A stretch of 37,885 nucleotides of DNA from Syntrophorhabdaceae bacterium (GTDB lineage Bacteria; Desulfobacterota; Syntrophorhabdia; Syntrophorhabdales; Syntrophorhabdaceae): contig JAOAGQ010000067.1 in NCBI GenBank assembly GCA_026415675.1, positions 1-37,885 of the forward strand. Reading direction: 5' to 3'. The notes under the pieces are model-generated. The model searched no databases, was not told the origin of the DNA, and saw only the letters and a program-made list of their open reading frames with translations. The translations under genes and the position numbers were made by a program. This document shows, in pieces, positions 207-5,524 of this stretch (positions are counted from its first letter, which is position 1; each line of letters opens with the position of its first letter).

Positions 207-1202
207 ATGGCGAATATATATCAGGACAACTCATATTCAATAGGGAGGACACCCCTTGTGCGGCTAAACAAGGTGGTGGATGGGGCCAATGCAATGATCC
301 TTGCAAAGATAGAGGGGAGAAACCCTGCCTATTCTGTAAAATGTAGAATAGGGGCGGCCATGATATGGGATGCAGAGAAAAGGGGTATTTTAAAACCGGG
401 CATGGAGATCATAGAACCCACATCGGGTAATACAGGCATTGCCCTTGCCTATGTTGCGGCGGCAAGGGGATACAGGCTCATCCTTACCATGCCCGAGACG
501 ATGAGTATCGAGAGGAGAAAGCTCCTTAAGATATTCGGGGCGAATCTCATCCTCACAGAGGGGGCAAAGGGGATGAGGGGTGCCGTTGAGAAGGCAGAGG
601 AGATAGCAAAGAGCGACCCTTCCCGCTATTTTTTACCCCAGCAGTTTGAAAATCCGGCAAATCCCGCAATCCACGAGGCAACAACGGCCGTTGAGATATG
701 GAATGACACGGATGGTAACATGGATATATTTGTCGCAGGGGTTGGAACAGGCGGTACCATAACAGGGGTAAGCCGCTTTTTTAAAAAGAGAAAGGGGAAA
801 AATATCCTCTCCGTTGCTGTGGAGCCTGCCCATTCCCCTGTTTTGACCCAGACAAGAAACGGCGAGGAGATAAAACCTGGTCCCCACAAGATCCAGGGCA
901 TCGGTGCCGGTTTTGTCCCGAAGATCCTCGACATGGATCTTATTGACCGCATAGAACAGGTGACAAACGAAGAATCTATGGAGATGGCGAGGAGACTTGC
1001 TAAAGAGGAGGGTATACTGTCAGGTATCTCCTGTGGTGCTGCTGTGACCGCGGCGGTACGCATTGCAAAAGAGCCAGAACATAAAGGCAAGACGATAGTT
1101 GTAATCCTCCCTGATGGAGGGGAGCGTTATCTATCGACGCCTCTCTTTGAAGGTATCTTCACAGGAGTTGAAAAGGCCTCGGCCTCAAATGATGTGCTGT
1201 GA
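207..1202 (+). CDS. cysK: Cysteine synthase (O-acetylserine sulfhydrylase), CysK type
   Basis: A cytoplasmic PLP enzyme of 331 aa that replaces the acetyl group of O-acetylserine with sulfide to make cysteine. The PLP lysine is K45 in the SVKCRIG motif. The substrate loop PTSGNTGIA spans residues 71-79, and the PLP-phosphate loop GVGTGGT spans 178-184. The length and the near C-terminal GERYLST motif match E. coli CysK closely. The start is clear: GGAGG at 196-200 lies 6 nt before the ATG. The loop that is ISSGAA in E. coli CysK reads ISCGAA here, and PSSGER reads PDGGER. An E1-like sulfur-carrier activating enzyme lies directly upstream, so a thiocarboxylate sulfur donor (as in CysO/CysM) is an alternative to free sulfide. 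The overall sequence is CysK-like rather than CysM-like. Confidence 0.95.
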
Positions 1203-1263: not shown

Positions 1264-1557
1264 ATGGTAGAGAAGGAAAACGCTGCTTTATCATCAGAAG
1301 ACAGGGAGCTCGTAGAGAAGATCCTCGGGATGAGGTTAAAGGTATTATACAGGGAGACGGGGGAGACAAAGGTCTTTACCCTTGCGGAGGCCAAGGAATG
1401 GGATTGGTCAAACCCTGAAATCTGGCGGATTGCAAACGGTTGGCAGATTACGACCTTCCAGAGGCTCCTTAAACTTTTATACCTCAAGGCAAAGAAAGGT
1501 TACGATGAGATAGAGATACTGGAAGCCCCCCGTTTCACCATGCTTTCAGGGGGATAA
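1264..1557 (+). CDS. Conserved-looking small protein of unknown function
   Basis: A 97-aa soluble protein that I do not recognise. The start was set at the ATG preceded by AAGGAG (1251-1256, 7 nt away); a TTG further upstream at 1237 is less likely. The N-terminal third is acidic and helical. The middle carries a tryptophan-rich patch, EWDWSNPEIWRIANGW (about residues 54-69), and the rest is basic, ending FTMLSGG. It has no signal peptide, membrane segment or cysteine. It lies 61 bp downstream of cysK in the same direction and may be its operon partner, but nothing in the sequence gives a function. Confidence 0.65.
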   Translation: MVEKENAALSSEDRELVEKILGMRLKVLYRETGETKVFTLAEAKEWDWSNPEIWRIANGWQITTFQRLLKLLYLKAKKGYDEIEILEAPRFTMLSGG

Positions 1558-1571
1558 ATGTAATATATCCT

Positions 1572-1638
1572 CGATAGATGTTAAGGCCATACCTTCCTTA
1601 TCCTTGACTAACATGGGCTAATCTATTATCATCTATCG
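1572..1638. repeat. Inverted repeat in the gap before the restriction-like gene
   Basis: The 9-bp arms CGATAGATG (1572-1580) and CATCTATCG (1630-1638) are perfect inverted copies, 49 nt apart. The right arm ends 4 nt before the ATG of the next gene. It could be an operator or a weak RNA structure, or it could be chance. Confidence 0.35.
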
Positions 1639-1641
1639 GTA

Positions 1642-3537
1642 ATGCACCCTTCGATCAAGAGAAATACCCTCCTTTCGGAGGCCGGTGTTAAGTCTATCTT
1701 GAGTGCGCCTTTTGAGAGGGATATATACGAGAATATCTACAGGATACTTACAAAATTTCAGGAAATCAAAGGGTTTGCGAGTGAAATACATACGGAAACC
1801 CATATCGTAAGGCCCATATTAAAGCTTTTTGGGTATGCCTGTGAGTCAAAACCAAAGTTTTTTGAGGAGAGGATCAAGGGCCCCGATGTAGCCCTCTTCT
1901 CCTCCGAAGAGGCAAGGGTTTATGCCTCAAAATTGTGGGGTCTTAAAGAATACTACGATATGCCCCTGGGGATCCTCGTTTTAAAAAGATACGGCAGAAG
2001 CCTCGATAAAGGGATAAGTGGTTTTTATCTCGAGTTTGAAAACAGGATACCTGTCTATCAGGTGTTATATATGTTGAAAAAGACTAAAACACCCTGGGGG
2101 ATTCTCACAAATGGAAAAGAATGGATAATCATTAAAAGGCCGGTAAAATTCGAGTTGATGATGATCGAGGTCGATATCGAAAAGGGGATGGTGGATAAAA
2201 CGTATGAAACCTTCCATCTATTTTACAACATCTTTTCTCTGGGAGCGATTAGTAAAACCATACCCCAGATTATGGACAGGGAGAGGGAAGAGATTGTTGG
2301 AATGGTAAAGGAGAAGAGGACCTCTTTTAAGGAGGCTATATCGGGTCTTAAGAAAAAGTCGGAAATAATGCCAAAGGTGATGGAAATATTAGAGGAATTT
2401 TCTATAGGATCCCCCATTTGTACCCCCAGGGGATACACTAATCAGGGTGATGAAACACAAGATGTATTAAAGAGGATAGACAACATCAACCCTTACAACA
2501 TCATCCATATTTTAAACACCTTATTTACAAAAAAGATAGGGGACGATGATGAACCGGGCATCGCCGATATCCTTTTTAAGGGGGACGCAAGGTATAGCAA
2601 AGAGGATATCCTTTCCTTAAAGATCCTCGACCTTACCCCTGGTTTTGGTACGACCCTTATGGACTTACAGAACGAACTCGCTTACCTCTCCTTTGTGCTG
2701 CCTTACAGGGAAAAGAATACTTTCGTTGCCGAGTGGGAAGATGAACAAGGCCTAAAAAAATATATCATGGATAACGTCTTCTATGGTGTTGAACGTTCCC
2801 CGGCAGTCCTTCAGATTTTAAAAAACACCTTCAATAACTTTATCCATTTGGAACTGCCTAACTTTCGTGGAGGTAACCCATTATTCGGGATGACCATCAG
2901 GGACATCTCTTCTTTATACGATTCAAAAAAACAGATGGGTCTTTTTGGCAAGACCCCACTGGAAGTCCTTGAATATTTCAAAGAAGGGTACAAGAGATTC
3001 TTTGCCCTTTCGGATAAGATAAGAGAGGATGCGGAAGAGAAAAAAGAAATCGCATCTTATCTAAACCTTTATAGAGAGAGGATTAGGGATATCCTCGATG
3101 TGTTAACCGCCACCTATCTCAGTAGGACAATAGAAAAAAAGAAAGTCCAGGATTTAATCATGCATCTGGGAGAGGAAGAATCCCTTTGGGATGCGATGAG
3201 AAAGAAAAACTGGTTTGTGGAATCGAAAGAGATGGCGAGAAAATACGGCTTTTTCCACTTCGAGGTGGAATTCCCCTTTCTCTTTCAGACTTCCTTCGAT
3301 ATCATACTTATCAAACCGGAAATGGTATACCTATGGGAGGAAGACCCTCCGATATTGGACATTACAAAGTCCTATATAAAGAGCGGTTTTCGGTTTTTAA
3401 AGCCCGAAGGAAAGATGGTGATTTACATGGATAAACCATCGGAGCCCTTTATTGAGGAATTGAAGGGGTCAAAAAAATATACCTTTGAAAAGATAAAAGG
3501 GGCAATCCTTCTGTCAAGGAAAGCCCCTTCTGCCTGA
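1642..3537 (+). CDS. Degenerate type IIG restriction-modification homologue (predicted catalytically dead nuclease-methyltransferase)
   Basis: A 631-aa protein with the layout of Eco57I/type IIG enzymes. The N-terminal PD-(D/E)xK-like domain (about 40-170) keeps GPDVALF (D82), the LKRYGRSLD stretch and TPWGILTNGKEW. Where active homologues have E-A-K, it has V113-L114-K115, so the acidic residue is gone. The N6-adenine methyltransferase domain has LDLTPGFGTTL (329-339) in place of LDPACGSGTFL and VFYGVERSP (379-387) for motif II. It also keeps the FHFEVEFPFLF lead-in to motif IV. Motif IV itself, normally NPPY/W, is K558-P559-E560-M561. The chain ends after the methyltransferase fold, with no target-recognition domain, and is shorter than usual (typically about 900 aa or more). 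No stop or frameshift interrupts it, so it may have been retained in a non-enzymatic role. It lacks a good ribosome-binding site. An unrelated SAM-fold protein is possible but less likely. Confidence 0.75.
   Translation: MHPSIKRNTLLSEAGVKSILSAPFERDIYENIYRILTKFQEIKGFASEIHTETHIVRPILKLFGYACESKPKFFEERIKGPDVALFSSEEARVYASKLWGLKEYYDMPLGILVLKRYGRSLDKGISGFYLEFENRIPVYQVLYMLKKTKTPWGILTNGKEWIIIKRPVKFELMMIEVDIEKGMVDKTYETFHLFYNIFSLGAISKTIPQIMDREREEIVGMVKEKRTSFKEAISGLKKKSEIMPKVMEILEEFSIGSPICTPRGYTNQGDETQDVLKRIDNINPYNIIHILNTLFTKKIGDDDEPGIADILFKGDARYSKEDILSLKILDLTPGFGTTLMDLQNELAYLSFVLPYREKNTFVAEWEDEQGLKKYIMDNVFYGVERSPAVLQILKNTFNNFIHLELPNFRGGNPLFGMTIRDISSLYDSKKQMGLFGKTPLEVLEYFKEGYKRFFALSDKIREDAEEKKEIASYLNLYRERIRDILDVLTATYLSRTIEKKKVQDLIMHLGEEESLWDAMRKKNWFVESKEMARKYGFFHFEVEFPFLFQTSFDIILIKPEMVYLWEEDPPILDITKSYIKSGFRFLKPEGKMVIYMDKPSEPFIEELKGSKKYTFEKIKGAILLSRKAPSA
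3497..3529 (+). terminator. Possible hairpin at the end of the restriction-like gene
   Basis: AAGGGGC (3497-3503) pairs perfectly with GCCCCTT (3523-3529), and CCTT/AAGG pairs inside it. It overlaps the last codons of the gene and lies in a convergent junction with fhs. Only a loose T-rich stretch follows, so terminator function is uncertain. Confidence 0.3.
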
Positions 3538-3552
3538 TTCTTATTGTAATTT

Positions 3553-5313
3553 TTAAAAGAGACCCTTTACCCTTCCCGTTGTGGTATCCACATCTATCCT
3601 TCTGAAGGCGGGGTCTGAACTTGTACCTGGCATTAAGCTTATGGTTCCTGTCATAGGGCATAAGAATCTTGCCCCGGAGAATATGAGGATGTCCCTTATG
3701 GGGAGGGTCCATCCCTTCGGTACACCCTTCCATTCGGGCACATGGGAGAGACTGAGGTGTGTCTTTACCATCATCGTATAATAGTTTTTAAACTCGGGAT
3801 CTGTCTCTAATTTCTTTGCCTTTTCCTCCGCCTCCGGAATCCAAAGTACACCGTCGGCACCGTATACGTTTTTTGCAATGATCTCGACCCTCTTTCTAAG
3901 AGGCATCTCCAGGGGGTAAAGGTATTGAAATTCTACCTTCTCCTCGCAGGCATCGATTACCGCATCGGCGAGTTCTAATGCCCCTTCCCCGCCTTTCAGC
4001 CAGTGCTCAGATACGGCTACCCTTGCCCCTTCGGCCTCAGCGTAACGTCTGATCAGTGCGATCTCATCCTTTGTATCCGTACTGAAACTGTTTATACAGA
4101 CTACAGGTTTCATCCCTGACATCTTAATGGTACGGATATGGTGGAGAAGATTTTCTATACCCTTTTCGAGGAGTTGGAGGTTTTCCTTGGTATATTCCTG
4201 GGGTATGGGGAGTCCGGGGGTAACCTTAGGTCCGCCGCCATGCATCTTTAAAGCCCTTACCGTTGCCGTTACCACAGACACATTTGGATGTAAGCCACTG
4301 ATCCTACATTTCACATTCCAGAATTTTTCAAACCCGATATCCGCGGCGAAACCACTCTCCGTTACATGGTAATCGAACATCTTAAGGCCCATTTTATCCG
4401 CTATAATAGAAGACTGACCTATCGCTATATTTGCAAAAGGCCCTGCATGGACCATAACTGGCTGTCCTTCGATGGTCTGTAACAGGGTGGGGTTTATGCT
4501 TTCCCTCATAAATGCGGTCATCGCCCCTGCCACCTCGAGGTCTTCCGGTGTTATTGGCCTGCCTTTTTTATCATATGCGACGGTGATCTTGCCGATACGT
4601 TCCCTTAGGTCCTTTAAATCCTTGGCTATGGAAAGGATCGCCATGATCTCGGAGCTGACCGCAATATCGAAGCGGGATTCCATGGTAAAACCATCCATCT
4701 TTCCCCCAAGCCCTATGATGATCCTCCTTAGTGTCTGGGCGCAAAAATCCATAACCCAGCCCATCTGCACGTTCTTTGAATCGACATCAAGGCGTCTTAA
4801 CCCCCTCTTTGCAAGGGCTTCATCATCATAGTTTCTCTCATGCTGCATCCTTGAAGTTAAGGCTACCATACAGAGGTTATGGGCATTGACCACGTTATTT
4901 ATGTCCCCTGTAAGCCCGAGGGAAAATTCGGTTAAAGGTATGGCCTGGGCATTACCGCCCCCTGCTGCACTCCCTTTTATATTAAACGTGGGCCCCCCTG
5001 AGGGTTGCCTTATGGCACCCCCCACAATTTTCCCCCTTTTCCCGAGTCCCTCGATCAAACCCATTGATGTGGTCGTTTTTCCTTCACCGAGAGGGGTTGG
5101 GGTTATGGCGGTGACCTCTATATATTTACCGTCCGGTTTGTCTTTTAGCCGTTCCATGATTTTGAGATAATCGAGCCTTCCGATTTTCCCATAGGGGATC
5201 ACCTCATCCTTTTCCAGCCCCAACTCGTCTCCGAGTTGCCATATGCTCTTCATGTTTTTTTCAGCTGCTTCTGAAATTTCCCAGTCCGCCATTTTAGTAG
5301 GATCGTACGGCAT
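3553..5313 (-). CDS. fhs: Formate-tetrahydrofolate ligase
   Basis: A 586-aa cytoplasmic enzyme that makes 10-formyl-THF from formate, THF and ATP, the entry step of the methyl branch of the Wood-Ljungdahl pathway and of formate assimilation. The ATP loop [10 protein letters not shown] is at residues 72-81. Other family segments are [11 protein letters not shown] and [11 protein letters not shown], and the C-terminus ends [11 protein letters not shown]. Homologues are usually about 555-560 aa, so this one is slightly long. The frame stays open upstream to 5496, but I start at the ATG at 5313. It has an AGGAG site, its N-terminus ([13 protein letters not shown]) is family-like, and a good promoter lies inside the longer version. 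The gene ends 15 bp from the convergent gene on the other strand. Confidence 0.95.
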
Positions 5314-5398
5314 ACCAGTTCTCCTTTCTTTTCGTAATTTTTTGTTTTTTTGAGTCCTGGTTGAGCTTTTCATAACACCCCCAAAACTTTTGCCATAA

Positions 5399-5426
5399 AT
5401 ATTAATGAAATCAAAAGAAATGTCAA
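5399..5426 (-). promoter_or_regulatory. Sigma-70-type promoter for fhs
   Basis: On the minus strand, TTGACA (plus-strand 5421-5426) is followed after 16 nt by TAATAT (plus-strand 5399-5404). Transcription would begin near 5391, giving a leader of roughly 80 nt before the ATG at 5313. This also argues against a start at 5496. Confidence 0.6.
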
Positions 5427-5495
5427 CTTTTTTAGTATTAAATGTCCATGCAAAATAATGTACATCCCGTTTTACAGAAAATAATAAGTTACGCA

Positions 5496-5524
5496 TTGAC
5501 GGAAGACTTAACCTGTTGTAAAAA
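5496..5524 (+). promoter_or_regulatory. Possible promoter for the Tat flavoprotein-cytochrome operon
   Basis: TTGACG (5496-5501), a 17-nt spacer and TAAAAA (5519-5524) lie upstream of the ATG at 5563 in a very AT-rich divergent intergenic region. The -10 element is weak. Confidence 0.4.

Follow-up and report, generated by a model that had tools for sequence, protein, structure and literature searches.

A conserved, probable pseudo-restriction enzyme of type IIG/DrmMI ancestry in two families of Syntrophorhabdales

Type IIG restriction-modification (RM) enzymes such as DrdV, BpuSI, and BsaXI share with DrmMI of DISARM class 1 the same collinear nuclease and N6-adenine methyltransferase domains, and their distribution is patchy. 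RM genes are usually patchy and short-lived, and the persistent ones that have been described are active orphan methyltransferases (PMC6471742). Here we describe a gene from a Syntrophorhabdaceae bacterium whose product is a new, well-conserved pseudo-restriction enzyme (herein the pseudo-RM protein). It lies in a 37,885-nucleotide stretch of DNA (herein the window) and forms an open reading frame of 631 codons at 1642 through 3537 on the forward strand. A sequence-only reading of this DNA had called the frame intact, as it is: internal stops number zero, and the opposite strand is stop-rich. The features referred to below are as follows.

207..1202, +, cysK, upstream neighbor, in this position only in the window genome (neighborhood comparison)
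1264..1557, +, small open reading frame with its own Shine-Dalgarno sequence, not kept beside the gene in relatives (neighborhood comparison)
1604..1632, +, predicted sigma70-type promoter TTGACT-N17-TATCAT, 9 nt 5′ of the ATG, no Shine-Dalgarno sequence (sequence, 33 genomes)
1642..3537, +, pseudo type IIG restriction-modification protein, 631 residues (open reading frame, homology)
1642..2241, +, nuclease-fold (PD-(D/E)XK) domain, residues 1 through 200 (alignment, model)
1783..1785, +, E48, helix glutamate of the nuclease core, kept in 33/33 (alignment)
1885..1887, +, D82, aspartate of the PD motif, kept in 33/33 (alignment)
1978..1986, +, V113-L114-K115 replacing E-x-K; glutamate missing in 33/33, lysine present in 33/33 (alignment)
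2623..2658, +, methyltransferase motif I, altered (ILDLTPGFGTTL, residues 328 through 339) (alignment)
2791..2793, +, E384, acidic residue of motif II (aspartate in active relatives), 33/33 (alignment)
2872..2889, +, GNPLFG, motif III, counterpart of GNSLIG (alignment)
3313..3324, +, KPEM replacing NPPY/W (relatives mostly QP[SA]L) (alignment)
3553..5496, −, formate-tetrahydrofolate ligase gene (fhs), convergent downstream neighbor, in this position only in the window genome (neighborhood comparison)

Homology and predicted structure

Profile-profile alignment (hhalign; P 99.9, E 5e-35) shows that residues 6 through 601 are collinear with intact type IIG/DrmMI relatives from the same phylum. 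V113 is paired with the glutamate of ExK, K558 with the asparagine of NPPY/W, and D330 through G336 with DPAMGSG. The sequence-only reading had singled out V113, LDLTPGFGTTL (residues 329 through 339), and KPEM (558 through 561); all three are found at those positions, with V113 opposite the ExK glutamate. It had also reported the target-recognition domain as missing, and the chain indeed stops at residue 631, past the methyltransferase fold. The active relatives are mostly hundreds of residues longer, and the helical connector is ∼230 residues shorter than in intact type IIG enzymes (profile alignment). Of the hallmarks of type IIG, the protein has the nuclease and methyltransferase domains in a single chain and lacks all three of the others, namely the ExK glutamate, a motif IV of the form (N/D/S)PP(Y/F/W), and the target-recognition domain.

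Neither Pfam nor NCBIfam gives a significant match to the 631-residue protein, and PADLOC matches it only weakly to DrmMI (8.6e-5), because the family is highly divergent. A sequence search of the PDB with the family profile returned low-complexity helical matches only, and the phage and viral collections yielded no relative. Among the plasmid matches shown, only type IIG-like nuclease domains appear, mostly haloarchaeal and at 26 to 31% identity. At the inspected loci no DISARM partner genes lie beside the gene; its neighbors in the window and in relatives are metabolic or unrelated. A literature search found nothing on the gene.

As the sequence-only reading had anticipated, both folds are predicted in the full-length AlphaFold2 model (pLDDT 84.9, pTM 0.85); the nuclease domain modeled alone has a pLDDT of 89.0. 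The best Foldseek match to the full model is PglX/BrxX (8c45, E 8.8e-5), and BsaXI and CamA are also matched. Comparison of the full model with DrdV gives a Z of 13.4 over 399 residues and an rmsd of 13.6, a large value that probably reflects the modeled domain orientation. The nuclease-domain model matches DrdV with a Z of 10.8 (rmsd 2.9, 134 residues), BpuSI with a Z of 10.6, and HsdR with a Z of 10.1; in Foldseek alone it returned nothing below 1e-3. A separate match of this model (window 1642 through 2361) is to a structural component of the mammalian mitoribosome, chain 5 of its large subunit (Z ∼9.5, ∼170 residues); the likeness, if real, would provide an earlier example of the fold in non-catalytic form within a ribonucleoprotein.

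Lost residues, distribution, and selection

Alignment of 33 homologs shows E48, D82, K115, R116, P137, Q140, G158, and W161 to be invariant. All 11 active relatives have the ExK glutamate; the corresponding position, 113, is acidic in 0 of the 33 homologs, which have L (22), V (3), Q (2), M (2), or F, I, S, and A (1 each) there. The nuclease core has lost a single carboxylate and retained the remainder. With a median net charge of 0 in the nuclease part and −4 in the methyltransferase part, the protein is not basic, so charge gives DNA binding no support.

In the methyltransferase domain D330 (32/33), G336, E384, G411, N412 (32/33), L414, G416, FFH (537 through 539), and D553 are kept. NPPY is present in none of the 33, nor is the intact motif IV of an active orphan DNA methyltransferase; it is mostly replaced by Gln-Pro-Ser/Ala-Leu, with Gln in 32 (Lys in the window copy), the first Pro in 32, and QP at the start in 31. 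Since the relatives are already QPxL, KPEM is a private change atop a dead motif, with Q558K found in the window copy only. The region of motif X (YYTP in active relatives) is unrecognizable. Invariant positions number 81 of 631, and fall at 38 of 145 positions in windows around the ancestral motifs versus 43 of 486 elsewhere, a descriptive comparison given that the windows were hand-picked. Two statements of the sequence-only reading hold in part. It had both active sites destroyed, which is true of the ExK glutamate and NPPY, but E48, D82, K115, Q140, D330, G336, E384, N412, and D553 remain; and it looked for KPEM-like motifs across species, where the loss of NPPY is general but KPEM itself is confined to the window.

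A homolog is present in 37 of the 38 other genomes of Syntrophorhabdaceae (f1), in single copy and full length except for copies truncated or divided at contig ends; all 4 tested genomes of another family in the order (f2) have one too. The f1 and f2 homologs have 38 to 54% identity over long matches. A further family, f3, lacks the gene in all three of its genomes. Outside f1 and f2, large type IIG/DrmMI proteins were all that a profile scan across 395 genomes of the phylum turned up, and a scan of one genome per species (84,980 species), using two peptide patterns only, found 27 loci, all from this group where they could be matched to the searched genomes. Besides its pseudo-RM protein, genome G008 encodes an intact 1373-residue type IIG/DrmMI-like enzyme (EAKR, DPAMGSG, NPPY; L035:4325-8443).

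Values of dN/dS are 0.06 to 0.15, including for genome G021, which has no adjacent operon (see below); they refer to within-genus pairs among the relatives and not to the window copy, whose nearest relatives are saturated at synonymous sites. Distribution and dN/dS together rule out a decaying gene. As expected of a conserved pseudoenzyme, catalytic residues have been lost clade-wide, and frame and fold are under purifying selection; both the conservation of the gene and the loss of its catalytic motifs are well supported. The proposal of the sequence-only reading that the protein is selected for a non-catalytic job is likewise supported, by the many species without the ExK glutamate or NPPY and by the low dN/dS. 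Close relatives with intact sites, which it had named as a sign of simple decay, were not seen, the only intact homologs being type IIG giants of 24 to 31% identity.

Genomic neighborhood and a promoter-like element

The fixed neighborhood that the sequence-only reading had looked for exists: 27 of 32 genomes have a cytochrome b gene 5′ of the pseudo-RM gene, both in the same orientation. The full gene order is sdhC-sdhA-sdhB-Rieske-cytochrome b-85-residue membrane protein-pseudo-RM gene, with a gap of ∼30 nt between the last two. The operon as such unites parts of complex II and of bc type in Syntrophorhabdales (L051:3414-7971; L091 and L092 in f3); a literature search found no paper on an sdhCAB-Rieske-cytochrome b operon, and the 85-residue membrane protein has no Pfam match.

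In f3 genomes G040 and G042 the operon is followed by convergent MBL-hydrolase and epimerase genes with no pseudo-RM gene between, and in f1 genomes G018 and G024 and f2 genome G041 the pseudo-RM gene adjoins the same MBL-hydrolase and/or epimerase genes. From these shared neighbors we infer that the gene was probably inserted there in the ancestor of f1 and f2. It is partly unlinked from the operon in f2. Cytochrome b was not found in G000, G018, G021, and G024, all four of which retain the pseudo-RM gene; gaps in metagenome-assembled genomes could conceal an operon, although the window genome has a completeness rating of 99%. The gene in G021 adjoins the divergent gene that usually flanks the operon start. 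The whole operon is absent between these two genes, and the 213 nt that separate them (L098:8820-9032) are partly alignable to the region upstream of the operon in sister species.

The operon-less genomes fall at three separate places in the tree, which points to at least three operon losses, the window lineage included; as the gene outlived these losses, it is more than a component of the SDH-Rieske-cytochrome b complex. Its neighbors in the window are cysK with the small open reading frame on one side and the convergent fhs on the other, and none of them is conserved around it. The small frame (1264 through 1557), which follows cysK, encodes 97 residues, has a good Shine-Dalgarno sequence, and matches nothing in Pfam or NCBIfam.

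Upstream of the gene, all 33 genomes carry TTGACT-N17/18-TAT(T/C/G)AT (TATTCT in two), ending 5 to 17 nt 5′ of the ATG; the distance from the −10 element to the ATG is 5 to 11 nt in 23 and 12 to 17 nt in 10. A promoter matching at ≥9/12 positions with its −10 element within 20 nt of the ATG is found in 33 of 33 copies versus 16 of 266 control genes, and a Shine-Dalgarno-like GGAG/GAGG/AGGA in the last 20 nt in 0 of 33 versus 87 of 266, the controls being other genes of the same loci with starts taken as first ATGs, partly wrong. In genomes with the operon, the −35 element extends into the stop codon that ends the small membrane-protein gene (CTT GAC TAA). The promoter is also kept where that gene is absent (G000, G018, G024, G021, and f2) and hence is not due to coding constraint alone. 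The closeness of the −10 element to the ATG and the lack of a Shine-Dalgarno sequence predict a leaderless or near-leaderless transcript of the gene's own. Leaderless transcripts are known in the control of type II R-M systems, for example that of the AhdI C gene (PMC5333194).

Possible function and comparison with known systems

We consider it probable, with reservations, that the gene encodes a domesticated RM enzyme that is non-catalytic, holds nucleic acid in its old nuclease cleft, and serves as a housekeeping binding or regulatory factor. The explanation builds on the homology, the lost residues, the distribution, the purifying selection, the promoter-like element, and survival past operon loss. 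A type IIG/DrmMI-like RM protein would have arrived in the ancestor of the two Syntrophorhabdales families beside the electron-transport operon; it would have lost the target-recognition domain, most of the connector, the metal-binding nuclease glutamate, and the methyltransferase NPPY before being fixed as a core gene and inherited vertically. The old cleft may hold nucleic acid (DNA, possibly RNA) and the methyltransferase fold may be a scaffold or ligand pocket, the product being a putative housekeeping factor made from a near-leaderless transcript. As the nuclease core is otherwise frozen, a non-catalytic nucleic-acid holder seems the most likely mechanism. The pattern of kept pocket residues is as would be seen in a cleft that goes on binding its ligand. 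Absence of catalysis is inferred from the residues, and nucleic-acid binding and a housekeeping role of a regulatory or structural kind are proposed. The fullest version of this reading, in which an RM enzyme has lost catalysis, is expressed from a leaderless transcript, and has become a lineage-wide housekeeping protein of nucleic-acid-binding or regulatory function outside any known family, is put forward tentatively.

Restriction enzymes of the Cfr10I/NgoMIV type have another acidic residue in place of the ExK glutamate, and a nuclease rewired in this way, with for example E133 in the loop before the Q140 helix as the substitute, might still be active. E133 is invariant in all 33 homologs together with E48, D82, K115, and Q140, as in a working site. 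We nevertheless find such activity improbable: position 133 is also acidic in active relatives (8 of 11) whose ExK glutamate is intact, so it is no specific replacement; loop 126 through 134 has a pLDDT <50 in the nuclease-domain model, so its geometry cannot be judged; and the protein has neither a target-recognition domain nor an active methyltransferase domain for host protection. Descent from a defense enzyme related to DrmMI and PglX would suit an anti-phage decoy, sensor, or partner that binds anti-restriction proteins or helps a real restriction system. This role is rather improbable given that no defense genes were recognized alongside in the inspected genomes, the phage and viral collections yielded no relative, and the gene has evolved slowly and vertically, in single copy, throughout the family; for these reasons the decoy has the least support among the decoy, sensor, and regulator jobs suggested by the sequence-only reading.

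A position directly downstream, fixed in most of the family, would fit a protein that assists, assembles, or regulates the SDH-Rieske-cytochrome b complex, but this is largely refuted and very improbable, as the operon occurs without the gene in two f3 genomes, four genomes keep the gene without the operon, linkage is partly lost in f2, and the gene has its own promoter-like element; the first two of these also make a subunit of the complex unlikely. Loss of function in the window copy alone, through relaxed selection after operon loss and relocation in an otherwise functional family, is unlikely as well. Its terminal branch measures 0.84 versus ∼0.30 in the sister, and 10 of 122 near-invariant columns have changed, besides the private Q558K; yet the frame is clean, the promoter is intact, and the three-point rate ratio against G002 is 1.78, versus 1.2 for proA and 1.5 to 1.6 for obg of the same genome. 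The mild acceleration that these sequences suggest is compatible with slightly looser constraint rather than decay.

Both activities have apparently been lost, yet the gene is a core gene of two bacterial families and was kept despite the disappearance of the adjacent operon. A domesticated RM enzyme of this kind would be a test case for how defense enzymes turn into housekeeping proteins, and makes it testable whether a nuclease cleft minus one carboxylate holds nucleic acid uncut.

Unlike type IIG enzymes and DrmMI, the pseudo-RM protein has no ExK glutamate, NPPY, or target-recognition domain and lacks most of the connector; their distribution is patchy, whereas its gene is core and vertically inherited. 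With PglX/BrxX of BREX it has the methyltransferase fold in common. PglX is a larger, active methyltransferase with DNA recognition and is found in BREX loci, and none of this applies to the pseudo-RM protein. Conserved orphan methyltransferases (Dam, CcrM, CamA, and those of haloarchaea; PMC6471742) are likewise RM-type proteins that became lineage-wide conserved genes. These orphans are catalytically active, whereas the pseudo-RM protein has no catalytic motif. METTL14 is a pseudo-methyltransferase with a dead catalytic motif that works on RNA with an active partner; in both proteins a methyltransferase fold is under selection despite a dead motif, and only the pseudo-RM protein has a nuclease fold attached.
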